From: Streptomyces sp. SCUT-3
Lineage (GTDB): Bacteria > Actinomycetota > Actinomycetes > Streptomycetales > Streptomycetaceae
Reading direction: 5' to 3'
DNA length: 64,000 nucleotides
NCBI RefSeq assembly: GCF_014083985.1
Contig: NZ_CP046907.1
Span: 3,634,501-3,698,500 of the forward strand
This document shows, piece after piece, positions 1 through 23,178 of this stretch. How positions within the stretch are numbered: the first letter of the stretch is position 1; each line of letters opens with the position of its first letter. Under the pieces are notes generated by a model that ran no database searches, had not been told where the DNA came from, and saw nothing but the letters and a program-made list of their open reading frames with translations. The position numbers were made by a program, and so were the translations under genes.

Positions 1-2482
1 GCCGGGCCACCGCGTGCCAGGCCAGCCGGCGCACCTGGGCCAGGACCTCGGGGCGGCCGTCGGAGCGCCCGTCGGGGCGGCCGTCGGGGCCGGGGAAGCG
101 GTCCAGCATGGCGAGGAGGCCGGAGCGTCCCCGGAACAGGCCCGGCTCCCGCACGAACTCGTTGGCGCAGCCGTGGCCCACGGCGGAGACGAAGCCGGCG
201 AGCTCCGGATCGTCGGCGTGGGCGAGGTAGTGCCGGGCGACGAGGGCCGGGCCGCCGCTGCCGCCGTCCAGGTAGAGGGTGTGCCGGCGGCCGTTCTTCA
301 CCTGGCGGGTGCCGTCCGGCATGGTCACGCAGTGGCCGGTCTCCCAGCGCAGCGCCTCGCGGGCGGCGCGCAGGTACCGCTTGTCGCCGACGGTCTCGTA
401 CAGCCGCAGGTGGAGCAGGGCCGCTCCGCTCATGCCGTGGATCAGGCCGGCGGTCCCGGGCAGCACGGGGGCGGGCTGCGCGCCGTCCGCGGTGCCGTCC
501 GAGGTTCCCCCCGGGGCGCCGTCCGGGTCGAGCAGGGCGGCGAGGCGGTCGGCGGTGCGGACGGCCTCGTCGAGGAGGGCGCCGTCGCCGGTGACGGCGG
601 AGAAGTGGAGCAGGGCCAGGGCCGTGCCGACCTGCCCGGAGAACATGCCGACGGCGGCGGGCCGCCGGGCGGCGCGGGCCCGCTCCAGGACCTCCAGGGC
701 CTCCTGGGTGCGGCCGAGTTCGTGGAGGACCACCGCGGTGCCGGACAGTCCGTCGTACAGGCCGGGTGCGGGCGCGGCCCGCCGGGCGGCGTCGACCAGC
801 CAGTCGGTGTACTCGGCGGGGACGGGGACCTGCGCGCGGTGCAGCGCGAACAGGACGCCGGCCGCGCCGTGGGCCAGGCCTGCGCCGCCGGAGCGGAACA
901 CCTCCGGGTCGGCGGGGAACAGGCGGTCCGTGCGCTCGGGGGTCGCGCCGGCGCGGATGCCGGCCGCCAGCCGGTCCCGCAGGGACGGCCAGTCGAGGCG
1001 GTCGGCCCCGAACAGCTCCCGCACGACGGCCTCGCCCCCGGCGGACGGCGCGGGCGCCCCGGCCGCCGCACGCCCGGCCGGGGCGGCGGGCAGGCGGGGG
1101 CCGGCGTCGGCCGGGAGGCCGAAGCGCTCGCGGACGAACGCCTCCATGGCCCCGACCTTGCCCGGTTCGCGGTCCGCCAGCTCCGGCATCGGCATGAGCA
1201 TCATCCGCCAGGCGGCGCGCAGGGCGTGCCGGTCGGCGTCGGCCCGGGACAGCCCGGCGGGGGCGGCGAAACCGGGGGCGCCCATCACCGGGCCGGCGGC
1301 CTCGTCCAGGTCCGCGGCGTACTCGAAGTCGATCAGGACGACCGAGCCGTCGGGGCGCAGCAGGATGTTGCCGGGGTGCAGGTCGCCGAAGGCGAGGCCG
1401 CGGCCGTGCACGGCGTCCAGCGCCTCCTCCAGGCGCTCGGTCACCCCGGACACCCACCGCAGGTACTCGGCGACCGCCTCGTCCGTGACGTTCCGGTGCA
1501 CCAGCGGGTACCGGGCCACCACGGCCTCGAGCAGCCGCTTCCCCTCGATGTACTCCTCGACCAGGAAGTGGTGCTCCCACACGGTGCGCACCTCGTGCAC
1601 CCGGGGCACGCAGTCCAGCCCCTCCAGCCGCCGCAGTGCCCGGTACTCGCGGTGCAGGCGTTCCACGGCGTCGGTGCCGGTGCCGTCGAGGCCGCTGTGG
1701 GGGCGGGCCTCGCGCAGCACCACTTTCTCCCCGGTGTCGCGGTGCTCGGCCAGGTAGATGCCGCCGGCGTTGGAGAAGTGCAGCGCTTCGACGACCGTGT
1801 ACGGGAAGTCGTCGTCGCGGGCTTCCCGGCGGGCCTCCAGGTGGGGTTCCAGGACGTCCGGCACGTCCACCCACTCGGGGGTGCGGAACACCGGGCCCCG
1901 GAGGTCGGGGACCAGTTCGCCCGAGGGCGCCCGCAGCGCCGGGACGGGCGTGCCGTCCTCGCCGGTGCACCAGCGTTCCACGAAAGCGCCGTAGCGCACG
2001 AAGACGGGGCCGGCGCCGATCCGCAGGTCGCTGAGGACGTAGGGGCCCCGCTGTCCGTCCAGGGCCCGCACCAGTTCGGGGAGCAGCTCACGGAACTGCT
2101 GCTCGTCGGCCGGGTAGACGGTGACGAACTTCCCGCTGCTCGAACGGCTCATGTACTTGTCGGCGGCCAGCAGCAGGGCGGTGCGGCTGCGCAGGAACTT
2201 GAACGGGACACGGCGCTCCGTGCAGATCCGGGCGGCGGTGTCGAGGGTCTTCCCGGCGTCCTCGGGGACGGCCGACAGGTGGATCTTCCAGCCCTGCTCG
2301 GCCGGCTGCGTCCCGGTGGGCACCATCGAGACCCACAGCCCCCGGGAGGAGCGCCGCCAGCCCGGCGGGACGGCGGCCTCGGCCAGGGGGTAGCGGGTGT
2401 CCTCGTCGCGCATGCGGTCCGGGGTGTCGTAGTACAGCCGGTCGGCGACGCAGTACAGCTGGGTGCTCTGGGGGTCCGGCAT
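1..2482 (-). CDS. class III lanthipeptide synthetase (LanKC), partial at left edge
   Basis: These are the first 827 codons of a LanKC enzyme; the gene runs off the window, so its C-terminus is unseen. Such enzymes phosphorylate Ser/Thr of a precursor peptide, eliminate the phosphate, and close lanthionine or labionin rings. Seen: a lyase-type N-terminus (about residues 1-215) with GPYVLSDLRIGAGPVFVRY; a kinase-like domain (about 225-490) with HGRGLAFGDLHPGN (catalytic Asp/Asn) and LIDFEYA (metal-binding Asp); then the start of a LanC-like cyclase region (from about 535) with GLFRGRSGLLAML. No W-C-x-G or C-H-G zinc motif appears in the visible part, which favours class III over class IV. ATG at 2482 has GGGAG about 7 nt upstream. 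It lies 31 nt after the MFS gene, so the two are probably co-transcribed. Its likely substrate is the 52-aa peptide at 3980-4138. Confidence 0.93.
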   Translation of the reverse strand, partial: MPDPQSTQLYCVADRLYYDTPDRMRDEDTRYPLAEAAVPPGWRRSSRGLWVSMVPTGTQPAEQGWKIHLSAVPEDAGKTLDTAARICTERRVPFKFLRSRTALLLAADKYMSRSSSGKFVTVYPADEQQFRELLPELVRALDGQRGPYVLSDLRIGAGPVFVRYGAFVERWCTGEDGTPVPALRAPSGELVPDLRGPVFRTPEWVDVPDVLEPHLEARREARDDDFPYTVVEALHFSNAGGIYLAEHRDTGEKVVLREARPHSGLDGTGTDAVERLHREYRALRRLEGLDCVPRVHEVRTVWEHHFLVEEYIEGKRLLEAVVARYPLVHRNVTDEAVAEYLRWVSGVTERLEEALDAVHGRGLAFGDLHPGNILLRPDGSVVLIDFEYAADLDEAAGPVMGAPGFAAPAGLSRADADRHALRAAWRMMLMPMPELADREPGKVGAMEAFVRERFGLPADAGPRLPAAPAGRAAAGAPAPSAGGEAVVRELFGADRLDWPSLRDRLAAGIRAGATPERTDRLFPADPEVFRSGGAGLAHGAAGVLFALHRAQVPVPAEYTDWLVDAARRAAPAPGLYDGLSGTAVVLHELGRTQEALEVLERARAARRPAAVGMFSGQVGTALALLHFSAVTGDGALLDEAVRTADRLAALLDPDGAPGGTSDGTADGAQPAPVLPGTAGLIHGMSGAALLHLRLYETVGDKRYLRAAREALRWETGHCVTMPDGTRQVKNGRRHTLYLDGGSGGPALVARHYLAHADDPELAGFVSAVGHGCANEFVREPGLFRGRSGLLAMLDRFPGPDGRPDGRSDGRPEVLAQVRRLAWHAVAR

Positions 2483-2513
2483 CGTGCTTCTCCCTGTGTG
2501 CGGGGCTGCGGGG

Positions 2514-3854
2514 CTACGGGGTCTCGGGGGTGGCGGCAGCGGCGGGCTGTTCCTGCGGGGGCCGCCGGCTCCCGGGCACCCCGGAGGTGCCGGGGGCATC
2601 GGGCACGCCGGGGGTGTCGGGCGCGCCGGGGGCGTCGGCCCGGGCCCCGGCGGCGGGGAGCGGGCGGCGCATGGACGGCGCCACGGTGATCACCACCGCG
2701 CACAGGGCGAACACCGCGGTGACGGCGCCGAAGCCGGCGGCCGGCCCCCACAGGGTCAGCGCGGTCCCGGCGGCGAGCGGGCCCAGCGGAACGACCAGGG
2801 AGGAGACGAAGGACGCCGCGCTCTGGACCCGGCCGACCAGGTCCTCGGGAGTGGCCGTGAGCAGGCTGGTGAGGAAGCCGATGTTGGCCACGGCGGCCAC
2901 CGCCAGGCAGGCCGCGACCAGGAGCCCCATGAGCAGGACGCTGCGGTGGAACAGCAGGACGCCCGCGGCCGCGGTGCAGGCCCAGCAGGTGGCGGCGATC
3001 ATCGCGCCCGGGGGGACCTTGGGGGCCACGCGGGGGGCCAGCAGGGCGCCCAGCAGCGAGCCGACGGAGGTGAGCGAGACGACGAGGCCCGCGTCGACAC
3101 CGGAGCTCCCCCCGTCGGAGGCGACGGTGAGCGCGGTGAACATCATGGCGCTGAAGGCCGCGTTCATGCCCAGGCCGAAGACGAGCAGGGCGGTGCGCAG
3201 GTAGGGCCGGCCCAGGACGAAGACGACACCGGCGGTGAGTTCCCGCCGGCTGAAGGGGGCCCTGCGGCGGGCGGGGACGGACCGCGCCCGGACCAGGGCC
3301 AGGCAGCCGACCGACAGCAGCAGCCCCACGGCCTCCGCGGCGAACGGCAGGGCCGGGTGCCACGCGAACAGCGCGCCCCCGACCGCCGGTCCGGCCAGTC
3401 GGGTGGCGGCGGACCGCGCCTGGATCCGGGAGGAGGCGGTGGCCAGCTGCTCCTCGGGCACGACGGTCCGCAGCAGGCCGAGGGCGGCCGGCCCGCACAG
3501 GCTGGTGAGCACGGCACCCGACGCGGTGACCGCCAGGATCAGCGGCAGAGGCGCGCCGCCGAGCAGCACGGCGCCCGCGAGGACGGCGGCGGCCAGGGCG
3601 ATCGCGCTCTCGCAGAGGATCACCAGCCGGCGTCGCTCGACGGCGTCGGCCAGCGCACCGCCGGGCAGCATGGTCACCAGCAGGGCGCCGACCGAGACGG
3701 TGCCGACGGCTCCCGCGACCACCGCGGAACCCGTCTGCCGCAGCACCAGCAGGGGCAGGGCGATCGAGGACAGCTGCGCGCCCAGGGTGGTCAGCAGGCC
3801 GCTGATCCACAGCAGTCGGAAGTCCCTGTTCCGGCTGAGAGGGGAGTTCTTCAT
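2514..3854 (-). CDS. MFS transporter, likely peptide exporter of the RiPP locus
   Basis: A 446-aa membrane protein of the major facilitator superfamily, MFS_3/EntS-like. The N-terminus SRNRDFRLLWISGLLTTLG is typical of this branch. About 12 hydrophobic segments follow, with an ADAVERRR loop after TM2 that matches the conserved G-x-x-x-D-x-x-x-R-R loop. The last ~45 residues are a hydrophilic Pro/Gly/Ala-rich tail with repeats such as APGAPDTPGVPDAPG, probably disordered. It sits between the precursor gene (126 nt upstream) and lanKC (31 nt downstream) on the same strand, so export of the modified peptide is the likely role; substrate is inferred from position only. ATG at 3854 has a modest GGTAGG ribosome site. 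Confidence 0.9.
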   Translation of the reverse strand: MKNSPLSRNRDFRLLWISGLLTTLGAQLSSIALPLLVLRQTGSAVVAGAVGTVSVGALLVTMLPGGALADAVERRRLVILCESAIALAAAVLAGAVLLGGAPLPLILAVTASGAVLTSLCGPAALGLLRTVVPEEQLATASSRIQARSAATRLAGPAVGGALFAWHPALPFAAEAVGLLLSVGCLALVRARSVPARRRAPFSRRELTAGVVFVLGRPYLRTALLVFGLGMNAAFSAMMFTALTVASDGGSSGVDAGLVVSLTSVGSLLGALLAPRVAPKVPPGAMIAATCWACTAAAGVLLFHRSVLLMGLLVAACLAVAAVANIGFLTSLLTATPEDLVGRVQSAASFVSSLVVPLGPLAAGTALTLWGPAAGFGAVTAVFALCAVVITVAPSMRRPLPAAGARADAPGAPDTPGVPDAPGTSGVPGSRRPPQEQPAAAATPETP

Positions 3855-3931
3855 CGCACCTACCCAGTGCTCCGGGATCTGACGGGCCGGTACCGCGGGG
3901 GAGGCCCTGGGGAAAAGGTCCGCGAACGCCG

Positions 3932-3965
3932 CGGGGCGGCTCCCCCCGAAGAGGGAGCCACCCCG
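3932..3965 (-). terminator. UUCG-capped hairpin after the precursor gene
   Basis: On the minus-strand transcript a 15-bp stem (with G-U pairs) closes on a UUCG tetraloop, 14 nt after the precursor stop codon and before the MFS gene. It has no U tract. It probably acts as a partial terminator or 3' stabiliser, so that precursor mRNA outnumbers mRNA for the transporter and synthetase. Confidence 0.65.
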
Positions 3966-3979
3966 GCCGCGGGTCGGAA

Positions 3980-4138
3980 TTACTTCGCCGACTCGACCAC
4001 GCTCAGCAGGCTGATGCAGTTGCCGTCGGCGGCGGAGTCGCCGGCGACGGAGCCGGTGCCCTGCATGTCGAGGACGGAAGCGCTGTGGGCCTCGACCTCG
4101 GCCTCGTCCTCGCGGGGGGTCTCGATGTTCTCGGCCAT
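3980..4138 (-). CDS. lanthipeptide-like precursor peptide, 52 aa
   Basis: Short acidic peptide that begins MAENIETPRED. The ATG at 4138 follows an excellent AGGAGGT site 5 nt upstream. Residues 22-26 (VLDMQ) match the hydrophobic-x-x-hydrophobic-Gln leader box recognised by class III synthetases. The probable core after about residue 27 has Thr28, Ser30, Ser35, Ser43, Ser46, Ser50 and a single Cys41 (NCISLLSVVESAK at the C-terminus). Known class III cores carry S-x-x-S-x(2-5)-C; here the only Cys precedes the S-LL-S pair, so at most one thioether ring can form, probably from Ser30/Ser35 to Cys41. It is the first gene of the precursor-MFS-lanKC unit, isolated by hairpins on both sides. Residues 11-18 (DEAEVEAH) resemble residues 49-58 of the 67-aa peptide at 9358-9561. 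Confidence 0.8.
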   Translation of the reverse strand: MAENIETPREDEAEVEAHSASVLDMQGTGSVAGDSAADGNCISLLSVVESAK

Positions 4139-4356
4139 GGTGACCTCCTGTGTGTGATGCGTGATTTCGGCCGTCCGCCGGACGATGACCCCGTGTCCGG
4201 GGCCCTGTGGCGGGGGCCGGCCGGCGGTGCCCGCCGACATGCAGAACGTTATGGAGCGAGGGTTCGAAAGGGCCCCGGAGCCGGTATGGGAGCGGTATTT
4301 CACCAGCTCACGCAGGGGTTCCCGCCCGCGCGCGGGGCGCTGGAGGAGATGCCGGA

Positions 4357-4400
4357 ACGGCGGACGGCCGGCACCCGGGAGGGTGCCGGCCGTCCGCCGT
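4357..4400. terminator. 20-bp perfect hairpin, GGGA loop
   Basis: A perfect 20-bp inverted repeat (4357-4376 with 4381-4400) around a 4-nt loop. It lies 37 nt beyond the GAF gene stop and 219 nt before the precursor start. It marks the end of the radical SAM-to-GAF transcript, so the precursor gene needs its own promoter between about 4140 and 4356. I see no confident -10/-35 pair there. Confidence 0.85.
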
Positions 4401-4436
4401 GGCTCGGTGCGCGAACAGGGGCCGGGAGCGGGCCGT

Positions 4437-5138
4437 TCAGTCGCCGCCCGGTGTTTCGAGCAGCTCCCTGAGCGCGTCGAGGAGTTCCAGCCCCCGGGCG
4501 CGGCCGGAGGCGCCGAGAGCACCGGCCGCGGCCGGGGCCCCGTCCGCGGGCAGGCGCGCCCCGCCCGCCGCCGCGCCGGCCATGGCCGCGGCGACGGTCT
4601 CGTCGCGCCGGTCCACCGCCACCCGCAGCGCGGCGGCCGCCTGCCGGGCGAACAGGGCGAGCAGGTCGAGCTCGCCCAGGCTGGACCTGGACTGCGGCAC
4701 GGGGTCGAGCACCTCCAGGACGCCCAGCACCCGGGTCCGGTGGATCAGCGGCGCGGCCATCAGCGACTCGGGGACGTACCGGGTGGACTCGGCCAGGTCA
4801 CGGGCGAAGGACTCCTCCCGGGCGAGATCGTCCACGATCATGGGTTCGCCGGACACGGCGACCCATCCCGCGATGCCGCGCCCCGCCGGGAAGCGGGTGC
4901 CGACCAGGAACTCCTCCCCCCGGCCGGAGACCGCCTGGAAGACCAGCTCGTCGGTCTCCTCGTCGAGCAGGAAGATCGAGCTGGCCTGGGCGCCGAAGAT
5001 GGCCCGGGCCGTTTCGACGATCGACTGCAGGAGCTCCCGCTCCACGGTGGTGTCCTGGACGCCCGGCGCGGTCGACGGGGCCGGTGCGGCCGGTGCGGCC
5101 GACGGGGCCGGCGGGGGGAAGGAGTCGGTCGGCTTCAA
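4437..5138 (-). CDS. GAF-domain sensor protein
   Basis: A 233-aa soluble protein. After a Pro/Ala-rich N-terminus (about 1-30), a GAF domain spans about residues 33-170, with the recognisable FGAQASSIFLLDEETDELVF and AGRGIAGWVAVSGEPMIVDD segments. The C-terminal ~60 residues are Ala-rich helical. GAF domains bind small ligands such as cyclic nucleotides or haem, or act as redox sensors; the ligand here is unknown. The start is TTG at 5138, overlapping the S8 protease stop (TTGA) with GAGGTGA upstream, so translation is coupled. Because a class III nucleotide cyclase is encoded two genes earlier in the same operon, a cyclic-nucleotide-reading role is possible but inferred. Confidence 0.85.
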   Translation of the reverse strand: MKPTDSFPPPAPSAAPAAPAPSTAPGVQDTTVERELLQSIVETARAIFGAQASSIFLLDEETDELVFQAVSGRGEEFLVGTRFPAGRGIAGWVAVSGEPMIVDDLAREESFARDLAESTRYVPESLMAAPLIHRTRVLGVLEVLDPVPQSRSSLGELDLLALFARQAAAALRVAVDRRDETVAAAMAGAAAGGARLPADGAPAAAGALGASGRARGLELLDALRELLETPGGD

Positions 5139-5980
5139 GAGTCACCTCGGTTGTCTGTCCGGACGTTGGCCGCGGAGAGGTAGAGCATGGTCTTGACCTG
5201 GAAGGGCGTCAGGTTCGGGTGCTTGCTCATGACGCGTGCGCACAGGCCGGTGATGAAGGGGGTCGCGAAGCTGTTGCCGGTGGTGCGGATCGTGGTGCCG
5301 CCGAGCCAGGGCACGGTCACGTTCTGCCCGGGGGCGAAGAACTCGACGGGCGGGGAGGGGTTGTACAGGTACAGGTCCGGGGCGTCCTCCTCGTGGCTGC
5401 CCACCGAGACGACGGAGGAGAAGCGCCAGGGGAAGCTCTCCACCGGGGTGTTGTGGGCGGACGCCACGACGACCGTCCGGCCGAAGTACGCCTCGTCGGC
5501 GAGGACGCGCAGCTCGTCGACGAAGCGGGACCGGGTGGTGGACAGGCTGAGGTTGATCACGTCGAACCGCTGCTCCACCGCCCAGCGCAGTCCGGCCAGG
5601 AGCACGTCGCCGGTCCCGGAGAACCTCTCCCCCAGGACGCGGACGCTGTACAGCTCGCAGTCGGGCGCGGCGCGGCGGATGATCCCGGCGCACGCGGTGC
5701 CGTGGCCGCAGGTGTCCCCGGTGTCGGTCTCCTCGATCCGCACGCCGTCCCCGTCCTTGACGGCGACGTAGGAGCCGTCGACGGTCCCGATCGCCGGATG
5801 GTCGCGTTCCACGCCGGTGTCCACGACGCAGACCCGCACCCCGGCGCCGGTGGATCCGCCCCAGGCCGCTTCGGGGGTGATCCGGCCGCCGCCGGCGACC
5901 AGCCGGATGTCCTCGGGGCCGCGGCCCCGCAGGCTCCAGGTCAGGGCGGAGCCGGCCGGGGGCGCGGATACGGTGCTCAT
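5135..5980 (-). CDS. S8 (subtilisin-like) serine protease, cytoplasmic
   Basis: A 281-aa subtilase with an intact catalytic set: Asp54 (VCVVDTGV), His93 (GHGTACAG), oxyanion Asn177 (ASAHN) and Ser237 (GNSFATP). No signal peptide and no long prodomain precede the catalytic domain, so it most likely works inside the cell. ATG at 5980 overlaps the stop of the upstream cyclase gene (ATGA), and its own stop overlaps the GAF start, so all three are tightly coupled. In a RiPP locus an intracellular S8 protease is a good candidate for leader removal, either from the 67-aa or the 52-aa peptide. That role is inferred from context, not from the sequence itself. Confidence 0.92.
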   Translation of the reverse strand: MSTVSAPPAGSALTWSLRGRGPEDIRLVAGGGRITPEAAWGGSTGAGVRVCVVDTGVERDHPAIGTVDGSYVAVKDGDGVRIEETDTGDTCGHGTACAGIIRRAAPDCELYSVRVLGERFSGTGDVLLAGLRWAVEQRFDVINLSLSTTRSRFVDELRVLADEAYFGRTVVVASAHNTPVESFPWRFSSVVSVGSHEEDAPDLYLYNPSPPVEFFAPGQNVTVPWLGGTTIRTTGNSFATPFITGLCARVMSKHPNLTPFQVKTMLYLSAANVRTDNRGDS

Positions 5981-8900
5981 CGGTTCGTCAGGCCTTCCTT
6001 CTGCGGTGCCGCGGCGTGCGGCGGGTTCCCGTGCGGCGGGTCTGCGGGCGGCGGGTCTGCGGGCGGGCGCTCTTCGAGCAGCCGGTCCCGGAGCGCGCGG
6101 GCCCGGGCGGCGCCGGCCCGGTACCCCTTGGCGTCGAACAGGAGGGCGGCCCCGGCGGCCGAGCCGGCGGCCTCCGCGGGCCGGCCCAGAGCGGCCAGCA
6201 CGTGCGCGCGGTCGAGGGCGGCGACGGCCTGCACGAGCGGGGAGTCGGTAGCGGCGGCGGAGGCCACGGCCCGGTCCGCCAGGGCGGCGGCGGGCCCGGT
6301 GGAGCCGGCCGACGCGGCGGTCCGGGCGCGCAGCCCGTCGAGGTCGGCGGACTCCGAGCACGACAGCCCCCCGTCCGGTGCGAGGGCCCGCCCGTCCGCC
6401 TCCGCCCGCCCGTCCGCCTCCGCCTCCGGCTGCCCGTGGTCCAGGGCGAGCCGGGTCAGGTCCCGGGAGATGCTGCCCAGCAGGCCGGCGTCCCCCAGCG
6501 CGTGGCACGCCTCCTCGGCCTTCAGGAGCAGCGTCCGGGCACGGTGGTGCCGGCCGGTGAGCGAGGCCGCGGAGGCGGCGAACAGCGGCACGAAGACGGC
6601 GGCCTCGGCGTAGCCGAGTTCCCCGGCGAGGCGCTCGGCCTCGGCCAGGCGGGCGGAGGCGTCCTCCCACTGCCCGTCCAGCGCGAGGAGCACGGCGAGC
6701 GGGCAGTTGAGGGTGACGCGCACGATGCGGCGCCCGGGGCCGTGCGCGTCGAGCAGCTCGCGGCAGCGGGCCACCGCCTCGGGCACCGGGGTCGGGCCGC
6801 GCCACAGGGAGATGCCCGTCGCGCCCAGGGCGGCGGCGCGTTCGGGTTCGGCGTCGGCCCGCACCGCGTGCTCCAGGGCCTCTTCCAGGAGCAGGCCCGC
6901 CGCGGCGTGCCGGCCGTCCAGCTGGTGCTGCTGGGCGAGTCTGAGGCAGGCCCTGGCCACGCCGAGGTCGTCCCCCGCGGCGCGGAAGACGGGCAGGGCC
7001 GTGCGCGCGGCGTCGGCGGCCGGGACCGCTCCGGGCCGGTCGTCGTGGACGGCCAGGGCGATCCGGGCGTGCGCCGCGTTGACTGCGTCCCCTGTGCTCT
7101 CCGCCGCCTCCAGGGCGTCCCGCAGCAGTGACCGACCCTGTTCGGCCCGGCCCGCCGCCAGCCGGGCCTCGCCGAGCCGGCGGGCCGCCTCCGCCCGGGC
7201 CGGCTCGCCCGGCCGGGACAGGGCCAGGGCGCGTTCCAGCAGGTCGGCGGCCCAGGCCAGGTCGGCCCTGGCCAGGGCCCGGGCGCCCGCCGCCGTGAGC
7301 CGCTCGCAGGCGTGCAGGCGCAGCCGGTCGGTGTGCGGGTCCGCCAGGCCCAGTTCGGCCCGGTACCGGTGGGCGCGTTCCAGGTGGCCGCCCACGGTCC
7401 CGTTCTCGGCGCCGTGCCGCTGCAGGACGAGGGCGGCCTGCTCGTGCCGTTCGGCCCGTGCCCGCTTGGCCATGCGCCGGTAGGCGACCTCCTGGACGAG
7501 GCCGCTGCTGAAGCGGAAGGGGGCCCGGCCGCCGAGGGCGCGGCGCGGGGGTTCGACCAGCCGGCGCCGGGTCAGGCTCCGCAGGACGGACGGCACCGCC
7601 GTGCCGCCGCGGGGTCCCCGCCGGCCGGACGCCGGGTCCGCGGCGCCCGCGGCGCCCGCTCCGGCCGCGGCCGCGGTCAGGTCGGCCAGTTCGTCGAGGT
7701 GGAACTCCCTGCCCAGGACGGCGGCCAGGTCCAGGGCGGTGCGCTCGGCGCGGTCCAGCGTGTCGAGCCGGGCGCCGATCAGCGCGTGGACGGTGGGCGG
7801 CAGGGCGTCCGCGGGGCACGCCTCGCCCGGTTCCCCCTCCGCCATCATCGACAGCAGCTGCTCCAGGTGGAGCGGGTTGCCCTCGGCCCGTTCCACGGCG
7901 AGGGCGGAGCCGGCCCGGTGGGCGGCCACCTCGTCCAGCCCGACCGCCAGCAGGGCGGACTCCTCCGGGGACAGGCCGGAGAGCATGAGCGCGGCCGAGC
8001 GCAGCCGTCCGCTGCCCCAGCCCGGGCGCAGGTCCGGCAGTTCGGGCCGCGCGACGCACACGACGAGCACCGCGGCCTGCTCCAGCTCCTCCAGGAGCCG
8101 GTCCAGCACGTCGAAGAGGACCGGGGAGGCCCAGTGGCAGTCGTCGACGGCCAGCACCACCGCGCGTTCCTGCGCCAGGACGGCCAGGACGTCGACGAGC
8201 GCCGCGCACGTGTCGTCCAGCGAGGGGTTGGGCGTGCCGTCGCGCAGCAGCCCCGACTCCAGGACGGCCAGCGCGGCCCGCATCTCCGAGCGGGCCGCGG
8301 CGTCGTCCTCCCCGGGCGGGAGCGCGGCCGCCAGGGCCTGGCGGAGCGCGTCGGCCAGCGGGGCGAGGCTGCCCGCGTCACCGTAGGGGCGGCAGCGCCC
8401 GGTGCCCTCCGTGACCGGCTCCCGGGCGCGGGTGCGGTCGAGCCACTCCCGCACCAGCCGGGTCTTGCCCATGCCCGCCTCGCCGTAGACGGTGACGAGG
8501 TGGGACGCCTGCTGGACGAGGGTCCGGCGCAGGAGGAGGTCCAGTTCGGCGAGTTCCGTCTCCCGGCCGACGAACGGGGTGTCGAACCTGCGGAGGGTCT
8601 CGGGGCCGTCGTCCCGCACGGCCAGCAGCCGGCGCGCGGCGACCGGTTCCGCCTTGCCCTTGAGCAGCAGCGGCCCCACCGGTTCGGTGACGGCGGCGGA
8701 GCCGGCCGCCCGCACGGTGGTGGGGCCGACCAGCACCTGCCCGGCGGCCGCGTTCTGCTCCAGGCGGGCCGCGACGTTCACCACCTCGCCGGAGACCAGG
8801 GCCTGGCGGGCCGAGGCGTCGGTGCCGGTGACGACCTCGCCGGTGTTGACGCCGATCCGCACGTCCAGCCGGACGCCGAGGTCCGCGGTCAGCTCCTCGT

Positions 8901-9273
8901 TCAGCTCCTCCAGCGCGGCCACCATCTGCAGGGCCGCGGCCAGGGCCCGGCGGGCGTCGTCCTCGTGCGTCACCGGCACGCCGAAGACGGCCATCACCGC
9001 GTCGCCGATGAACTTCTCCACCGTCCCGCCGTGGGCCTCCAGCCGGTCGCGCATCAGCGCGAAGTAGCGCAGGGTGACGGAGCGCAGGGCCTCCGGGTCC
9101 AGGCGCCCGGACAGCGCGGTGGAACCGACGAGGTCGCAGAAGACGACGGTGACCATCCTGCGCTCCTCGACGGAGCCGGGGCCGGGGCCGGCGGGGGAGG
9201 TGCGGGGGGCGCCGCAGTGCGGGCAGAACGACGCCTCGGCCGGAGTCGGACGTGCGCACGAGGTGCAGACCAT
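5977..9273 (-). CDS. class III adenylate/guanylate cyclase-AAA ATPase-TPR protein
   Basis: A 1098-aa multidomain regulator. Residues 1-22 form a zinc ribbon (C3-x2-C6, C17-x2-C20). A class III cyclase domain follows (about 38-220) with the metal-binding Asp residues in FCDLVGSTAL and FIGDAVMAVFG and the N-x-x-x-R pair in GEVVNVAARLEQ, so it may be catalytically active. Next come an AAA/NB-type ATPase (Walker A GEAGMGKTRL, Walker B VVLAVDDCHW) and a long C-terminal TPR-like helical region. Unlike many relatives it has no LuxR DNA-binding domain. ATG at 9273 has GAGG 12 nt upstream. It is 84 nt after the 67-aa peptide gene and overlaps the S8 gene, so it belongs to the same operon. It probably links an intracellular signal to the protease/GAF module. 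Confidence 0.9.
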   Translation of the reverse strand: MVCTSCARPTPAEASFCPHCGAPRTSPAGPGPGSVEERRMVTVVFCDLVGSTALSGRLDPEALRSVTLRYFALMRDRLEAHGGTVEKFIGDAVMAVFGVPVTHEDDARRALAAALQMVAALEELNEELTADLGVRLDVRIGVNTGEVVTGTDASARQALVSGEVVNVAARLEQNAAAGQVLVGPTTVRAAGSAAVTEPVGPLLLKGKAEPVAARRLLAVRDDGPETLRRFDTPFVGRETELAELDLLLRRTLVQQASHLVTVYGEAGMGKTRLVREWLDRTRAREPVTEGTGRCRPYGDAGSLAPLADALRQALAAALPPGEDDAAARSEMRAALAVLESGLLRDGTPNPSLDDTCAALVDVLAVLAQERAVVLAVDDCHWASPVLFDVLDRLLEELEQAAVLVVCVARPELPDLRPGWGSGRLRSAALMLSGLSPEESALLAVGLDEVAAHRAGSALAVERAEGNPLHLEQLLSMMAEGEPGEACPADALPPTVHALIGARLDTLDRAERTALDLAAVLGREFHLDELADLTAAAAGAGAAGAADPASGRRGPRGGTAVPSVLRSLTRRRLVEPPRRALGGRAPFRFSSGLVQEVAYRRMAKRARAERHEQAALVLQRHGAENGTVGGHLERAHRYRAELGLADPHTDRLRLHACERLTAAGARALARADLAWAADLLERALALSRPGEPARAEAARRLGEARLAAGRAEQGRSLLRDALEAAESTGDAVNAAHARIALAVHDDRPGAVPAADAARTALPVFRAAGDDLGVARACLRLAQQHQLDGRHAAAGLLLEEALEHAVRADAEPERAAALGATGISLWRGPTPVPEAVARCRELLDAHGPGRRIVRVTLNCPLAVLLALDGQWEDASARLAEAERLAGELGYAEAAVFVPLFAASAASLTGRHHRARTLLLKAEEACHALGDAGLLGSISRDLTRLALDHGQPEAEADGRAEADGRALAPDGGLSCSESADLDGLRARTAASAGSTGPAAALADRAVASAAATDSPLVQAVAALDRAHVLAALGRPAEAAGSAAGAALLFDAKGYRAGAARARALRDRLLEERPPADPPPADPPHGNPPHAAAPQKEGLTNR

Positions 9274-9357
9274 GGTTTCGGTTTCCTCGGGTCGGGTGGG
9301 GCCGTGCGCCCGGGCGCGCCGTCCGGGCGGGTGTCCGCGGGGCGTCGGGGCGGGGCG

Positions 9358-9561
9358 TCAGAAGAGCGCGCCGCCGGCGATCTCGCCGTGCGCCTGCACC
9401 TCCGGCTCGGCCTCGTCCAGCCGTGCCTTGATCTCCAGCAGCAGTTCCAGTTCGGCAGGGGCGAGGTCGCGGAAGACCTGCTGCTGCTCCTCGGGCAGGG
9501 AGCTCACGGTGAATCCGGCGGCCTCCAGGGCGGAGAGCACGCGGTCGTCGCGGGGGTTCAC
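9358..9561 (-). CDS. 67-aa 'aroma-sacti' type peptide, candidate RiPP precursor or carrier
   Basis: A small acidic protein starting at GTG 9561, which overlaps the HDO stop codon (GTGA), with AAGGAGAAGG upstream. The pattern AL-x-AAGF...LPEEQQQVF...LAPAELELLLEIKARLDEAE...EVQAH matches, from memory, the short actinobacterial proteins that databases name 'aroma-sacti cluster domain' and that occur near radical SAM genes. After the EVQAH box only nine residues remain (GEIAGGALF), which could be a short core or a C-terminal tail. There is no Cys, so a thioether (sactipeptide) product cannot form within it. Co-translation with the radical SAM and diiron enzymes suggests it is their substrate or carrier. 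Function otherwise unknown. Confidence 0.75.
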   Translation of the reverse strand: MNPRDDRVLSALEAAGFTVSSLPEEQQQVFRDLAPAELELLLEIKARLDEAEPEVQAHGEIAGGALF

Positions 9562-10385
9562 GGGTTTCCTTCTCCTTCCGGCGGGTGGGCGGGCGCTCCC
9601 GGCGGGTGGGCGGGCGCGGTGCCGCCGAGCCGGGCGAACAGGGCGGCCAGGGCGTCCGCGGTGTGCAGCGCGCTGACGGCGACCGCGCTCTCCTGCGCGG
9701 GGGTCAGGTCCAGCCGGTCGAGCAGCGCGTCCAGTTCGGCGCGGTGGCCGGTGTCGAGGACGGCGTGCTCGCGGACGGTCCGGAAGGCCGCCCGGGGCAG
9801 GCCGGTGGCCCCGGCCAGCCGGTCCGCCAGCCAGGGCGCGGGCGCGTTGCCCTCCAGTACCGCGATGTAGCCGAGCAGGCCGACGGGGTGGTGGTGCGCG
9901 ACCCAGTAGTACTGGGCGCCGACCAGCCGGGCGACGGCCGGCGGCGGGAGGGCGCGGGCGACCTCCCCGGGGTCGGCCCCGGCCCGGGCGGCGTCCTCCA
10001 GGAGCCAGCGGTCGTGCCCGCGCTCCTCCTCCGCGTGCTCGCGCAGGTAGGCGCCCAGCGGGGCGGCCACCGGGTCCCGGGGCATGGTGGAGCAGCGCTG
10101 CGCGGCCAGCTCCATGAGCGGCACGGAGGCGCGGACGACACCGTGCATGGCCCGCAGGTAAGCGGTGTACCGGGCGGTCAGGCCGCGGTCGTCCCGCCAC
10201 AGGCGGGCCGTGGCCGCGGCCAGCGCGGGCGCGGCCGGGGCCAGCTTGAGGCGCAGGACGGCGCTGCGGCGGCCGCCCCGGGCCGCGGCGGCGGGCTGCG
10301 CGGCGCCCCGGGCCGCGGCCCGCGGCGCACCCGGGGGCGTGTCGTCCACCGGGGCCGGCGGCGCGGCCGGCCGGGGCGGGGTCAC
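9558..10385 (-). CDS. haem-oxygenase-like diiron oxidase/oxygenase (HDO superfamily)
   Basis: A 275-aa protein of the 'iron-containing redox enzyme' family (Haem_oxygenas_2 fold). After a disordered Pro/Ala-rich N-terminus (1-40), the helical core shows the expected metal-ligand spread: Glu92 (PLMELAAQ), Glu121 and His124 (EEERGHDRW), Glu178 (AVLEGNAP), and His207-x3-Asp211-x2-His214 (HAVLDTGH). Members of this superfamily use a labile diiron site and O2 for hydroxylation, N-oxygenation or C-C cleavage, often in natural product pathways. GTG at 10385 overlaps the radical SAM stop and its own stop overlaps the 67-aa peptide start, so the three genes are translated as a coupled unit. The substrate is unknown; the neighbouring peptide is the natural candidate. 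Confidence 0.85.
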   Translation of the reverse strand: MTPPRPAAPPAPVDDTPPGAPRAAARGAAQPAAAARGGRRSAVLRLKLAPAAPALAAATARLWRDDRGLTARYTAYLRAMHGVVRASVPLMELAAQRCSTMPRDPVAAPLGAYLREHAEEERGHDRWLLEDAARAGADPGEVARALPPPAVARLVGAQYYWVAHHHPVGLLGYIAVLEGNAPAPWLADRLAGATGLPRAAFRTVREHAVLDTGHRAELDALLDRLDLTPAQESAVAVSALHTADALAALFARLGGTAPAHPPGAPAHPPEGEGNP

Positions 10386-11512
10386 GATGCGGCCCGGGGC
10401 GTCGGGGCCAGGGAGACCAGGTCCGCGTAGGGCGCGCAGCCGTAGCGGCGCAGCAGCGCGGCCGGTCCCGCCTCGGCCTGCAGCCGCGCCGTCTCCCGGT
10501 CCAGCAGGGCGCCGACCGGCCCGGAGCCGGCGCGGCCGGCCGCCTCGGCCGCGGCCGGGTGCTCGGGGAGCGCCCGGCAGGCCGCGCACGGCCCGCCGGG
10601 GAGGGCGTGGGCGGCGGACGGGGCGGGGGAGGCGGACGAGACGCGGTCCGCCTCGGCCCCGTGCCGGGCCCGGGCGTACGGGTGGGACGGGCCGGTGGTG
10701 CGGATCGTGCGCAGCAGGGGGGAGTCGAGGAGCCTGCGGCGGATCTGCGGCCAGCCGTCCTCGGCGACGTGCCCGAGGCGCAGGTGCCGCGGCACCGGCC
10801 GCCGGTCGACGACGTCCTGGTTGCAGCAGGCGACCACGGTGCCGTCGAAGGCGACGACGGGCCAGGCGGCCATCGGGCAGGGGCGTACCCGGCCGCCGTC
10901 CACCACCGCGGTGCGCGGGGCGGCCCAGGCCGCGGCCCGCCCCACGGGCCGGGTCTCGTTGACGAGCATGGGCACCCGGTCGTCGAACTCGCGGCGCACG
11001 GCCGCGGTCGCCTCGGCCAGGTACGGGTCGTCGGGCCCGGTCCCGGTGATGTGGAAGCTCGCCGCGGTTCCGGCGTCGAGGACGCGGTGCACCGCCCGGA
11101 AGACGCCGGCGCGCGGCACCTCCCGCTCGTGGAACGCGTCGAGGCTCGCGGAGAAGTGGTCGACGGCGGTGACCGCCTCCATGATGCGCGCCGGGACCGT
11201 TCCGTTCCGGGCGAAGAACATCCCGCTGAGCACGGCGCTGCGGGTGCCGGCGCGCCGCGCCTCCCGGGCCAGGGCGGTGACGGCCGCGGGCAGCAGGAGG
11301 GGCTCCCCGCCGGTGAACAGCACGACCCCGGGCCGGTCCGCGGGGGTGAAGGAGCGGACGAAGCCGGTCAGCGGTCCGACGCCGGTGTCCTCCCCGTCCG
11401 GTGTGGAGGAGGTGGAGCAGTGCGCGCAGCGCAGCGGGCAGCGCCGGGTGAGGGTCATCAGCAGGCCGCCGCCCGGGACCGGGCGCCGGCCGACCAGGTC
11501 GGCCAGTTCCAT
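10382..11512 (-). CDS. radical SAM enzyme with C-terminal Cys cluster region
   Basis: A 376-aa protein. The radical SAM [4Fe-4S] motif is Cys25-x3-Cys29-x2-Cys32 (CPLRCAHC), followed by the GGEP SAM-binding motif in VLFTGGEPLLL. The C-terminal half has further Cys residues (RPCPMAAW, VVACCNQD, then GGPCAACRALPEH), consistent with a SPASM/Twitch-like auxiliary cluster, although spacing is not classical. Such enzymes modify peptide side chains or backbones. ATG at 11512 with GGAGGT 6 nt upstream. It is the first gene of the minus-strand operon, reading away from the divergent SARP gene. The stop overlaps the HDO start. Expression by the SARP activator is likely but inferred. Confidence 0.92.
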   Translation of the reverse strand: MELADLVGRRPVPGGGLLMTLTRRCPLRCAHCSTSSTPDGEDTGVGPLTGFVRSFTPADRPGVVLFTGGEPLLLPAAVTALAREARRAGTRSAVLSGMFFARNGTVPARIMEAVTAVDHFSASLDAFHEREVPRAGVFRAVHRVLDAGTAASFHITGTGPDDPYLAEATAAVRREFDDRVPMLVNETRPVGRAAAWAAPRTAVVDGGRVRPCPMAAWPVVAFDGTVVACCNQDVVDRRPVPRHLRLGHVAEDGWPQIRRRLLDSPLLRTIRTTGPSHPYARARHGAEADRVSSASPAPSAAHALPGGPCAACRALPEHPAAAEAAGRAGSGPVGALLDRETARLQAEAGPAALLRRYGCAPYADLVSLAPTPRAAS

Positions 11513-12307: not shown

Positions 12308-14146
12308 ATGCCAGGGGAGAACCCGGTGTTGAGATTCTCGGTCCTCGGCCCGCTGGTGGTCGAAAGCGGTGGCCGGCCCAGGGAGCTGGGCCCGCTCAAG
12401 CAGCGCCTCGTCCTGGCGGTGCTGCTGACCCGGCCCAACACCCCGGTGCCGGTGGAGATGTTGTCCGAGGCGCTCTGGGAGGGCGAACCGCCCCGGACCG
12501 CCCGCAAGAACCTGCACGTTTACGTGTCGGCCCTGCGCAAGCTCCTGGGCGGGGCGGCCGGCTCCGACCGGATCCTCCACGGCCCCGGCGGGTACGTGCT
12601 GCGCGTCGGGGCGGGCGAGTCGGACGCGCTCCGCTTCGAGGAGCTCGCCCGCGCGGGCCGGGAGGCGCTGCGGACCGGCTCCCTGGGGCAGGCGGCGGGA
12701 CTGTTCCGCGAGGCGCTCGACCTGTGGCGGGGCCCGGCACTGGCCGACCTGACCTGCTCGGACCTGCTCCGCCGGGAGGCGGACCGGTGGGGGGAGCGGT
12801 GGCTGGACGTCTACGAGGCGTGGGCCGAGACCGCGCTGCAGCTCGGCGAGGCGGAGGCGGTGGCCGACTCCGTCGGCGAGGCCGTCGAGCGCCATCCGCT
12901 CCGCGAACGGCTCCGGGCCGCGCAGATCGCGGCGCTGGAGCGCTGCGGCCGGCGCACGGAGGCGCTGGCGGCCTACGACGACCTGCGGCAGCTGCTCTCG
13001 CGCGAGCTGGGGCTGGAGCCCAGCCCCGCCCTGAAGGCGGTGTACGGGGAACTCCTCGGGGGCGGGCCGCACGCCGCGGGGCCCTCCGGGGCGTCACCGG
13101 CCGGACGCGTCCTGCTGCCCCGGGACCTGCCGGACCTGACCGGCCGGAAGGAGCAGGTGCGGGAGCTGCTCGCCGTCCTGGGCGGCGGAGACGGCGGACT
13201 GGTCGTGCTGGCCGGTCCGACGGGGGCCGGCAAGACGGCCCTCGCGGTGCACGTGGCGCACCGGCTGGAGCGGGAGTTCCCGGACGGCCGGGTGCTGGTG
13301 AGGATGCGCGCGGAGGACGGGTCGCCCCGCCCCCGGTCCTCGGTGCTGGCGGAGCTGGCCAGGCTCTTCGGGTTCGTCGCCCGCCTCCCGCACGATCCGG
13401 AGGAGGCCGGGGCGGCCTGGCGGTCCTGGGCCGCGGGCCGCCGGGTGCTGCTGCTCCTGGACGACGCCCCCGACGAGGCCGCGGTGCAGTGCCTGCTGCC
13501 CGGGGCGGGCCGGAACTCGGTCCTGGTCACGGCCCGCAGCAGGCTGGCCGGGCTGGAGGCCGCGCACCGCGTGGAGGTGCCGCCGTTCACCGTGCCGGAG
13601 GCGCTCGAACTGCTCGGGCGCATCATCGGACGCCGGCGGCTGCTGTCGGACCCGGACGCCGCCGGCCGCGTCGTGGAGGAGGCCGGACTGCTCCCGCTGG
13701 GGATCAGGGTGGCCGGGACGAAGCTGTCGATGCTGGCCCACCTGCCGCTGGGCGAGTTCGCCGAGCGGCTCGGCCGCAACGACACGCTGCTGGACGAGCT
13801 GGCCTCGGGCGGCCTGGCCGTCCGGTCCCGGCTGGCGGGCGCGTGGCGGGACCTCGCCGGGCCGTCCCGTTCCGTCCTGCAGGCCCTCGGGGCCCTGCCA
13901 GCGCCGCGGTTCACCCTCGACGAGGCGATGGCCGCGCTCGGCCTGGGCAGGGAGGACACCCAGCGGGCTCTGGAGTCGCTGATGGAGTCGTGCACCGTCT
14001 CCGCGGCCCCGGACGCCTCCGCGGCGCACCCGGTGCGCTTCGAACTGCCCAGGGTGGTTCACCTCTTCGCCAGGGAGCGTGCGTCGGAGGCGGTGCCGGG
14101 GGGATCCCGCGGTGTCGTCGCGGTGCTGCCCAGGGCGGCGGGGTGA
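12308..14146 (+). CDS. SARP-family transcriptional activator with NB-ARC-like ATPase domain
   Basis: A 612-aa AfsR/SARP regulator. An OmpR-type winged helix (about 5-95) is followed by the bacterial transcriptional activator domain (about 100-250, with the typical DLWRGPALADL) and an NB-ARC-like NTPase (Walker A GPTGAGKTAL near 303, Walker B VLLLLDDAPD near 383). The C-terminus is short and lacks the TPR tail of AfsR. ATG at 12308 with GGAG 6 nt upstream was chosen because the conserved LRFSVLGPL start of the domain follows directly. SARPs bind direct repeats near -35 and recruit RNA polymerase, usually to activate natural product clusters. It is divergent from the radical SAM operon and most likely its pathway-specific activator. 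Confidence 0.93.
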   Translation: MPGENPVLRFSVLGPLVVESGGRPRELGPLKQRLVLAVLLTRPNTPVPVEMLSEALWEGEPPRTARKNLHVYVSALRKLLGGAAGSDRILHGPGGYVLRVGAGESDALRFEELARAGREALRTGSLGQAAGLFREALDLWRGPALADLTCSDLLRREADRWGERWLDVYEAWAETALQLGEAEAVADSVGEAVERHPLRERLRAAQIAALERCGRRTEALAAYDDLRQLLSRELGLEPSPALKAVYGELLGGGPHAAGPSGASPAGRVLLPRDLPDLTGRKEQVRELLAVLGGGDGGLVVLAGPTGAGKTALAVHVAHRLEREFPDGRVLVRMRAEDGSPRPRSSVLAELARLFGFVARLPHDPEEAGAAWRSWAAGRRVLLLLDDAPDEAAVQCLLPGAGRNSVLVTARSRLAGLEAAHRVEVPPFTVPEALELLGRIIGRRRLLSDPDAAGRVVEEAGLLPLGIRVAGTKLSMLAHLPLGEFAERLGRNDTLLDELASGGLAVRSRLAGAWRDLAGPSRSVLQALGALPAPRFTLDEAMAALGLGREDTQRALESLMESCTVSAAPDASAAHPVRFELPRVVHLFARERASEAVPGGSRGVVAVLPRAAG

Positions 14147-14190: not shown

Positions 14191-15222
14191 TCACGCGTCC
14201 GGGGCAGGGGTGCGTGCGCGGGTCAGGAAACCGGCCTGGAAACGGCTGGCGGCGCCGAGCCCCTCCATGATCTCGGCGATGTGCTTGCGGCAGGTGCGCA
14301 GGGACATGCCGAGCCTGCGGGCGATCATCTCGTCCTTCATGCCCTCCGAGAGGAGGCGGACGATGGCCTGCTTGATCTCGTCGAGGGACGAGTCGTCCGG
14401 CCGCGCCGGGCTGTACGGCTCGGCCAGCGACCAGGCGTGGTCGAAGACGGAGCACAGGTAGGAGACCGTGGAGGGGTCGCGGACGACGACGGCGCCGTCG
14501 CGCGCCTCCCGGTGCGGCACGAAGACCACCTCGCCGTCGAAGGCGATCATCCTCCCGAACAGCTCGCTGAGCGTGCGCACCTGGGCTCCCGCGTCCGTGA
14601 TCCGTCGGACGTACTCCTGGGTCGGCGCGTGGTGCCGGGCGGTGTGCTGGTAGAGCGTGCGCATGCGCACGCCGCGCTGGAGCATGGCGTAGTCGCGCGC
14701 GAACGCCTGCTCCAGGAGGCTCGGGGACCGCCCGCCGCCGGGCTGGCAGGTGAGGACCTCGTCCTGGCACCGGGCGGCCGCGTCCGCGATCAGGCCGATG
14801 ACGGTGTCCAGCTCCAGCACCTGGCTGAGTGGTTCCGAGGAACGCTGCCGGCGCTGCCCCCTGGCGTACAGGGGGGACAGCATCGTCAGTTCGCCGCGTA
14901 AGCGTTCGATGTCGGCCAACTGCCTCCGCAGGGAGGCCTCCAGCGGTGACACGAGGCTGGCCGCGGCGGCTTCGGGCACCACGGGGACCACCTGGCCCCG
15001 GGGGCCGGGCAGGCGGCGGAGCAGGTGCAGGGAGAGCAGGTCCGAGACCGCCGCGCCGATCCGGTCGTCCGGCAGTCCGAGTTCCGCGCCCGCCTCCTCG
15101 GCGTCGAGCTCCCCGCGGTGCGCGACCCACTCGAAGAGGCGGACGGCGTCGTCGTCCAGGCGCGGCAGGCTGCCGGCGTCGTCGGTCGGCGCCCAGGTCG
15201 CGGCTTCGGCGTCCTGGCTCAT
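14191..15222 (-). CDS. LuxR-type HTH transcriptional regulator
   Basis: A 343-aa regulator without a receiver domain. The N-terminus looks like a TrmB-type winged helix (VRLFEWVAHRGELDAEE..., about 25-80). The middle has the phospholipase-D-like fold seen in many actinobacterial relatives (YQHTARHHAPTQEYVRR). The C-terminus is a LuxR-type helix-turn-helix (about 275-335) with EGMKDEMIARRLGMSLRTCR. ATG at 15222 with GGGAG upstream. The gene converges with the SARP gene; the 44 bp between them hold no clear terminator. Regulators of this type are frequent at the edges of lanthipeptide and other RiPP clusters in Streptomyces. The effector is unknown. Confidence 0.88.
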   Translation of the reverse strand: MSQDAEAATWAPTDDAGSLPRLDDDAVRLFEWVAHRGELDAEEAGAELGLPDDRIGAAVSDLLSLHLLRRLPGPRGQVVPVVPEAAAASLVSPLEASLRRQLADIERLRGELTMLSPLYARGQRRQRSSEPLSQVLELDTVIGLIADAAARCQDEVLTCQPGGGRSPSLLEQAFARDYAMLQRGVRMRTLYQHTARHHAPTQEYVRRITDAGAQVRTLSELFGRMIAFDGEVVFVPHREARDGAVVVRDPSTVSYLCSVFDHAWSLAEPYSPARPDDSSLDEIKQAIVRLLSEGMKDEMIARRLGMSLRTCRKHIAEIMEGLGAASRFQAGFLTRARTPAPDA

Positions 15223-22192: not shown

Positions 22193-23178
22193 ACCGCTTC
22201 GCACCCGTGACCCCGGCCCGGGAGTTCCGCGTCGTCTCCTCCGCGGGGACCCCCCTGCACGTCGAGGTCCACGGCCCCGAGGGCGCCCCGACCGTGGTGC
22301 TCAGCCACGGCTGGACCTGCTCCACCGTCTTCTGGGCGCCGGTCGTGCGCGACCTGGCCGCCGACCACCGCGTGGTCCTGTACGACCAGCGAGGCCACGG
22401 CCGCAGTGCGGCACCGGGCAGGGACGGGTACAGCACCACGGCCCTGGCCGACGACCTCGAGGCCGTCCTGGACGCCGCCGTCGACCGCGGTGAACGCGTC
22501 CTGCTCGCCGGGCACAGCATGGGCGGCATGACGATCATGGCCGCCGCCGACCGGCCCGCGGTGCGCGACCGCGCCGCGGCCGTGCTGCTGGCCAACACCG
22601 GCGCGGGCAGCCTGGTGGCCGAGGCCACGGTGCTGCCGCTGCGCGCCGGGGCGCTGCGCCACGCCCTGCAGAAGGCGGTGCTGTCGTCCGCGCTTCCGCT
22701 CGGACCGATCAGCGCGGTCAGCCGTGCGGCCCTGAAGTACGGGACCATGGGCCCGGACTCGGCGAAGGACGCGGTGCAGGCCTGCGCGCGGCTGGTGCAC
22801 GCCTGCCCGCGCAGGGTCCGCGCCGGCTGGGGGCGGATGCTGGCAGCCCTGGAGGTGGAGGCCAACCTCGTCCACCTGACCGCGCCCACCGCCGTGCTGA
22901 CGTCCACCGTGGACAGGCTGACCCCGCCCGTGCTGGCCCGGCGCATCGCCGACGCGCTGCCGAACTGCGTCGGCGTGACCGAGCTTCCCGGCCTGGGGCA
23001 CATGACCCCGCTGGAGGACCCGGACGCCGTCGTCGGCCTCCTGCGCAAACTGTCCGCCGACCACCTGTCCGCCGGCCGTCCGTCCGACGACCGCCCGCGC
23101 GGCGCCGCCGTCCCCCGCGCCGCCGCTTCCGAGCCCGTCACCGCCACCGCGCCCGTCGCCGAAGGAGAGAACGCGTGA
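22189..23178 (+). CDS. alpha/beta-fold hydrolase
   Basis: A 329-aa hydrolase. The oxyanion segment is VVLSHGWTCS, the nucleophile elbow GHSMGG places Ser110, and a C-terminal GLGHMTPLE supplies the catalytic His; an Asp in the loop TSTVDRLTPP completes the triad. A disordered tail (about 300-329) rich in Ala/Pro/Arg follows. GTG at 22189 overlaps the monooxygenase stop, and its stop overlaps the SDR start. It probably hydrolyses the ester produced by the monooxygenase; substrate unknown. Confidence 0.9.
   Translation: MNRFAPVTPAREFRVVSSAGTPLHVEVHGPEGAPTVVLSHGWTCSTVFWAPVVRDLAADHRVVLYDQRGHGRSAAPGRDGYSTTALADDLEAVLDAAVDRGERVLLAGHSMGGMTIMAAADRPAVRDRAAAVLLANTGAGSLVAEATVLPLRAGALRHALQKAVLSSALPLGPISAVSRAALKYGTMGPDSAKDAVQACARLVHACPRRVRAGWGRMLAALEVEANLVHLTAPTAVLTSTVDRLTPPVLARRIADALPNCVGVTELPGLGHMTPLEDPDAVVGLLRKLSADHLSAGRPSDDRPRGAAVPRAAASEPVTATAPVAEGENA

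Follow-up and report, generated by a model that had tools for sequence, protein, structure and literature searches.

Does a class III lanthipeptide gene cluster that lies beside a second peptide-modification operon represent two clusters that happen to meet, or one biosynthetic system? We addressed this question in Streptomyces sp. SCUT-3, where a 64,000-nucleotide stretch (positions 3634501-3698500 of contig NZ_CP046907.1, a 6.08-Mb single-contig genome; hereafter the window) encodes two candidate precursors of ribosomally synthesised and post-translationally modified peptides (RiPPs). One is a LanA peptide with its lanthionine synthetase LanKC; the other is an 'aroma-sacti' peptide (hereafter aroma peptide) with a radical SAM enzyme (rSAM) and a haem-oxygenase-like (HDO-type) oxidase. 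Both precursors carry the motif [DE]VxAH, as EVEAH in LanA and EVQAH in the aroma peptide. The operon keeps its gene order in related genomes, and LanKC lies near it far more often than random placement would give. The locus is probably one modular two-precursor RiPP system with a single shared processing module. Genes were called by a codon model trained on clear window genes, together with family (profile) scans:

2..2482, minus strand: LanKC, class III lanthionine synthetase (NF038151, RamC_N, Pkinase, LANC_like); C-terminus beyond the window
2514..3854, minus strand: MFS transporter, probable exporter (PF07690, 94 bits)
3980..4138, minus strand: LanA precursor, 52 residues (open reading frame (ORF) and codon score; no family match)
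4437..5138, minus strand: GAF-domain protein (PF01590, 72 bits)
5135..5980, minus strand: S8 (subtilisin-like) protease, proposed common processing protease (PF00082, 102.5 bits)
5977..9273, minus strand: zinc ribbon, nucleotide cyclase and AAA_16 protein, regulatory or signalling (PF00211, PF13191)
9358..9561, minus strand: aroma-sacti precursor, 67 residues (NF045560, 70.6 bits, cut-off 30)
9558..10385, minus strand: HDO-type oxidase (PF14518, 44.6 bits, cut-off 28.9)
10382..11512, minus strand: rSAM with a SPASM/twitch-like Cys set (PF04055)
12308..14146, plus strand: SARP-type regulator (BTAD, Trans_reg_C, NB-ARC)
14191..15222, minus strand: LuxR-type HTH regulator (GerE)

An earlier note on this DNA had placed LanKC, LanA and the rSAM/HDO/aroma-sacti operon on one strand beside a SARP gene, and the codon model and family scans bear out its coordinates and gene list; the two methods agree on the ends of the GAF, S8, HDO and rSAM genes. 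It had also reported only regulatory and protease genes between the two modules, a correct gene list that nevertheless passed over the MFS gene placed between LanA and LanKC. The coordinates give 4-nt overlaps at the rSAM/HDO, HDO/aroma, cyclase/S8 and S8/GAF junctions. The host genome holds one aroma-sacti match and one LanKC above cut-off.

A conserved operon and its changing neighbours

We scanned 150 genomes of the same family with the aroma-sacti model; 44 gave a match above cut-off, and at E <= 0.001 the number rose to 45. Forty-three of them supplied 45 stretches, each no longer than 20 kb (two each from G049 and G036; the weak match in G035 excluded and the window genome kept separate). 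In 31 of these stretches tblastn detected relatives of rSAM and HDO, and most of the 31 showed the order rSAM-HDO-aroma-cyclase-S8-GAF. Among sampled genomes with the rSAM/HDO operon, the distance between LanKC and the aroma gene was at most 15 kb in 17 of 31 (16 of 30 with the window genome excluded) against 0.32 expected (P ~4e-27), an expectation that comes from 83 LanKC matches (E <= 1e-60) and genome sizes, assumes random placement and ignores kinship. At most six LanKC candidates were scored per genome, and the LanKC counts may run slightly low.

When the rSAM alignment was used to search the GTDB species collection, 114 relatives were returned, and all 80-locus counts below refer to the best 80 of the 114. 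The six-gene operon (rSAM, HDO, aroma, cyclase/AAA, S8, GAF) is colinear on one strand in 70 of the 80 loci, and the other 10 are cut short where their contig stops. LanKC is present within 10 kb in 47 loci, so the combination of LanKC, HDO and aroma-sacti peptide, for which the earlier note had proposed a neighbourhood search, does recur; 21 loci carry a second, SPASM-type radical SAM enzyme (hereafter d8; nearest to NF038107 and TIGR04463, below both cut-offs), and three carry both. GAF genes accompany 70 loci, MFS 63, SARP 59 and LuxR-type relatives 14. Nearly all of the loci are from Streptomycetaceae, the outliers being L169 (a Catenulispora metagenome-assembled genome), L179 (Actinospica) and L193 (Phytohabitans maris), together with L144, an unplaced actinomycete metagenome-assembled genome.

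What stands beside the operon in the 33 loci without LanKC in the fetched stretch? Eighteen of them carry d8, and in seven more (L136, L139, L146, L162, L173, L177, L182) a d8 homologue, assigned by coordinates, lies just past the fetched end. LanKC itself lies ~1.3 kb past the end in L187, and L124, L128, L179 and L192, all on short contigs with no LanKC in the stretch, retain precursors with the VxAH motif and an LxLQ leader motif. L116 has a VxAH peptide and no recognised enzyme, and L165 is a short contig whose genome has a d8 homologue elsewhere. On the rSAM tree, a quick one in which L187 was scored as LanKC and the seven outside cases as d8, the LanKC label needs at least seven changes, three of them forced by starred branches, which implies that the partner has been swapped several times. 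The intact rSAM-to-GAF block without LanKC, which the earlier note had taken as the mark of independent clusters, is thus found in many genomes, but another RiPP enzyme with VxAH precursors usually stands there instead.

Two loci show further combinations. L083 encodes a full LanB dehydratase, with d8 also present; this class I enzyme, with a VEGH-bearing peptide, adjoins the aroma operon at L083:3225-6089. In L108 (genome G018) a single aroma operon is flanked on one side by d8 and two LanKC genes and on the other by a third LanKC.

The aroma peptide and its putative modifying enzymes

The leader of the window aroma peptide terminates in EVQAH, and the core that follows is GEIAGGALF. Of 79 peptides taken from the 80 loci, 76 end in GGALF, two in GAALF and one in GATLF. 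Neither the window core nor any of the 79 tails contains Cys, so that a Cys-derived sactionine thioether is impossible on the aroma core, and we rejected assignment of the peptide as a sactipeptide. In the family set, window included, the tail ends in F or W in 35 of 35 aroma peptides with an rSAM in the locus and in one of 16 without; the sole exception, L081, has rSAM, HDO and S8 genes ~18 kb away in its genome. By tblastn, HDO was found wherever rSAM was found in this set. As the aromatic tail coincides with rSAM and HDO, the two enzymes most likely act on the aroma tail, and hence on the aroma peptide rather than on the lanthipeptide. An oxidative change of the C-terminal aromatic residue would be their likeliest chemistry, at somewhat less than even chances, with epimerisation in the core ranking second.

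In HDO, E121, H124, E178, H207, D211 and H214 are invariant in 26 sequences, and its predicted structure (pLDDT 88.5) resembles 3dde, UndA and CADD in Foldseek; fold and conserved 3His/3carboxylate set place it in the HDO superfamily, with ligands assigned by pattern only. The rSAM (predicted structure, pLDDT 91.2) carries CPLRCAHC; CxxxCxxC is present in nearly all of 29 rows, two of which are short at the N-terminus, and C212, C229, C309 and C312 are kept in 29 of 29.

Other aroma peptides adjoin different enzymes. A subtype with the tail IKLA (L042, L046, L047, L048, L063, L064) occurs without rSAM and HDO of the window kind and adjoins SARP; d8 and MFS genes are further neighbours in all but the short L063. 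A Cys-ending subtype (L057, L068, L073, L076) is accompanied by d8, a flavoprotein (CoaC/LanD-like), a B12 radical SAM enzyme and an ATP-grasp protein.

Could the constant peptide have a fate of its own? PQQ and mycofactocin derive from short precursor peptides, and by analogy the aroma peptide might give rise to a small cofactor-like or signalling molecule tied to its partner only through the shared protease. The near-invariance of GGALF beside variable partner cores fits this possibility, and the cyclase, GAF and SARP genes suggest signalling; however, the rSAM comes nowhere near the PqqE cut-off (TIGR02109, 24.6 against 381 bits), which led us to reject it as a PqqE. We regard such a fate as doubtful.

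It is still less likely that the lanthipeptide is itself the substrate of rSAM and HDO and becomes one oxidised hybrid product. The same locus, the same strand in the window and the common motif would all suit a hybrid pathway, but rSAM and HDO follow the aromatic tail of the aroma peptide, and the pair stays in place as the partner changes between LanKC, the SPASM radical SAM enzyme and, once, LanB. Moreover, LanKC with a VxAH-bearing LanA occurs without rSAM and HDO in L104, L204 and L209. The tail correlation and these three loci disfavour LanA oxidation as the main role of the pair. Where the earlier note had left a choice between abutting clusters and a hybrid pathway that adds oxidation to a lanthipeptide, linkage of the two modules is supported by the LanKC counts and the shared motif, and the oxidation of the lanthipeptide finds no support.

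LanKC, LanA and the motif that follows the protease

The window LanKC scores 898 bits against NF038151 (cut-off 575) and 374 against the LanL model (cut-off 650). It extends past the window to about contig position 3634410, and its last ~30 codons (contig 3634410-3634493; L010:11910-11993) lie in another frame in this assembly, through either a sequencing error or a real truncation. Left of LanKC stands an amino-acid permease-like gene (L010:10213-11775), read by eye from its translation only. In a quick tree without a mixture model, which gave a long-branch warning and in which some genomes were entered twice, the 56 rows of LanKCs adjoining the operon form two groups that contain none of 19 control LanKCs; the LanKC of L104, where S8 is present and the aroma gene absent, falls with the operon-adjoining enzymes.

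LanA combines EVEAH with a leader motif, SVLDMQ, whose LDMQ is one residue away from LxLQ (LDLQ, LSLQ and similar in relatives), and its core ends in GNCISLLSVVESAK. By eye this core is of the form CxSxxS, with Cys before Ser, and does not fit the canonical SxxSx2-5C pattern; the order is the reverse of class III SxxSxxxC. Such cores recur in L123, L138, L157 and many more. Among 64 distinct tails from related loci, a list that includes a few non-precursor tails, 33 fit only CxSxxS, 23 only the canonical pattern, one both and seven neither.

How general is the motif? Of the 47 LanKC loci, 45 encode an LxLQ-type precursor that carries [DE][VI]x[AG]H. Across the 80 loci the raw scan had picked up 151 small ORFs with VxAH other than aroma genes, and some of these, C-terminal pieces of SARP genes (EVTAHA..Y..P), were removed before the count; L184 and L186, LanKC loci with a VxAH LanA, had been overlooked by an earlier filter. 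The controls were 20 hand-picked LanKC loci that do not lie at aroma places. Fifteen of them contain a recognisable LanA-like ORF, and only that of L104 bore VxAH; L104 alone among the controls also gave a cyclase hit, and its longer stretch, L106, adds S8 and GAF, with aroma, rSAM and HDO absent. In the other 19 controls, which gave no S8, cyclase or GAF hit, none of 14 LanA-like ORFs has the motif, and across their 187 kb no small VxAH ORF passed the scan, a looser scan giving one incidental case (L092).

The protease module also occurs apart from the aroma operon. An S8 homologue at E <= 1e-60 is present in 51 of the 150 family genomes, and we fetched eleven S8 places without a known aroma gene; L205 and L208 sit at contig ends with no partner visible, and L211 turned out to carry rSAM and HDO. 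The other eight, together with the control L104/L106, make nine S8 loci that lack aroma, rSAM and HDO, three with LanKC (L104, L204, L209) and six with d8 (L203, L206, L207, L210, L212, L213, the last two with a more distant S8 of 48-51% identity and no cyclase hit). All nine have VxAH precursors, of which six pass the filtered scan, those of L206 and L210 appear in the looser scan only and that of L203 has a reading frame that runs off the contig end. Since these loci retain the precursors, VxAH follows the S8 module and not rSAM/HDO. The motif is repeated before the cores of multi-core precursors (e.g. L044, L060, L122, L152, L207), the arrangement expected of a processing signal, and S8 would accordingly cleave at VxAH. 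By eye the protease has no hydrophobic N-terminus, and the cyclase/AAA protein shows no kinase domain in the Pfam scan.

That two independent RiPP clusters merely abut is improbable: the 33 loci without LanKC in the fetched stretch and the S8 modules with LanKC or d8 but no aroma operon are what it would lead one to expect, whereas the co-localisation counts and a motif common to both precursors yet absent from control LanA loci led us to reject chance abutment, and another VxAH-bearing RiPP module usually takes the place of LanKC.

Several observations do weigh against a single modular system. L117 and L133 (the latter read in the overlapping stretch L108), the two of the 47 loci without a motif-bearing LxLQ precursor, have LxLQ-type LanAs that lack VxAH, although both also have d8 and d8-type VxAH precursors. 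The genome of L115, which has an aroma operon, gave no match to either LanKC or d8, and the 20-kb stretch of L050 contains no visible partner. In the window LanA type VxAH precedes the LxLQ-like motif and stands ~22 residues before the core Cys; a protease that cut only at this point would not remove the whole leader, and further trimming would be needed. The control LanKC loci were not randomly drawn, one of the 17 nearby LanKCs (G081) is broken across frames, and the locus and genome counts are not phylogenetically independent.

Farther along the window, a monooxygenase of the FMO-like kind, a hydrolase and a short-chain dehydrogenase stand in a tight row (20675-24092), followed by a tricorn-like protease (24569-28003).

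A modular reading and its relation to known systems

In the modular two-precursor system that we favour, rSAM, HDO and the aroma peptide would form a constant arm, the enzymes modifying the C-terminal aromatic tail GGALF of a near-invariant short core. The exchangeable arm would here be LanKC with LanA, yielding a class III-type lanthipeptide, and in other species d8 or, once, LanB may fill it. The S8 protease, whose gene stands with those for cyclase/AAA and GAF, would serve both arms by reading [DE]VxAH in each precursor; the MFS transporter presumably exports the product and SARP presumably controls expression. The constant peptide would most likely serve as a fixed signal or helper peptide.

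More tentatively, a near-invariant, aromatic-tailed peptide modified by rSAM and HDO may be the fixed half of many RiPPs, the other half being swapped between a lanthipeptide (class III, once class I) and a SPASM radical SAM product under a single protease and a common motif; we consider this possible rather than probable. If true, that constant half might act as a shared signal for the variable product, or as its carrier or activating partner. The [DE]VxAH motif together with the S8/cyclase/GAF block would give a single rule by which precursors belonging to several RiPP classes could be found together, and would tie a protease encoded in the cluster to a class III lanthipeptide. An HDO beside a RiPP rSAM, with GGALF as conserved minimal candidate substrate, makes the chemistry directly testable, and the way in which nature exchanges entire modification modules around a single protease could serve as a template for combining RiPP chemistries.

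With class III lanthipeptides the locus shares a LanKC over the curated cut-off and an LxLQ-like leader in LanA and its relatives. It differs in its cluster-encoded S8 protease, in the recurrent aroma-sacti operon beside it and in the window-type CxSxxS core, which contrasts with the class III motif Sx2Sx3C given in PMC7268733. That source describes the protease as usually absent from actinobacterial class III clusters, and radical SAM genes as occurring in lanthipeptide clusters generally.

The aroma precursor passes the cut-off for the NCBIfam 'aroma-sacti' proteins (NF045560) and departs from the name in its Cys-free core. The closest solved relative of its rSAM is the epipeptide enzyme EpeE/YydG, both by sequence (E ~1e-10) and by fold (ranks 1-9), and the Cys pair that holds EpeE C223, on the second Cys, aligns with CCNQ. 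EpeE D210 is unmatched in the window rSAM, and an HDO is added here; the importance of C223 and D210 is taken from the titles of mutant structures. The rSAM was rejected as a YydG/EpeE equivalog (TIGR04078, 30 against 300 bits), and the cyclase/AAA protein as a TOMM kinase/cyclase (TIGR03903, 148 against 705 bits).

Cyanobactin maturation, with its S8 protease PatA, uses recognition-sequence logic. Like it, the present system pairs an S8 protease with a short motif repeated before the cores of multi-core precursors in related loci; unlike it, the window precursors are single-core, and the S8 was rejected as a PatA-type cyanobactin protease (TIGR03895, 28.5 against 421 bits).

HDO shares the fold and the candidate 3His/3carboxylate set with UndA, CADD, AetD and MboA. 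In sequence it matches the uncharacterised 3dde (E 1.8e-11); the characterised enzymes differ in matching weakly (MboA E 0.025, AetD 0.18), and here the oxidase is the constant partner of a RiPP rSAM. PMC13108848 treats HDOs of the 3His/3carboxylate type and refers to a part played in the modification of ribosomal peptides.

The name 'aroma-sacti' had no match in the literature searched, coverage of which leaves out most subscription journals; motif and core strings gave only an unrelated match, and among the literature matches listed no title or abstract start describes this composite locus. The earlier note could match such a combination to no described family; the parts are of known kinds, and their fixed combination and shared motif appear new.

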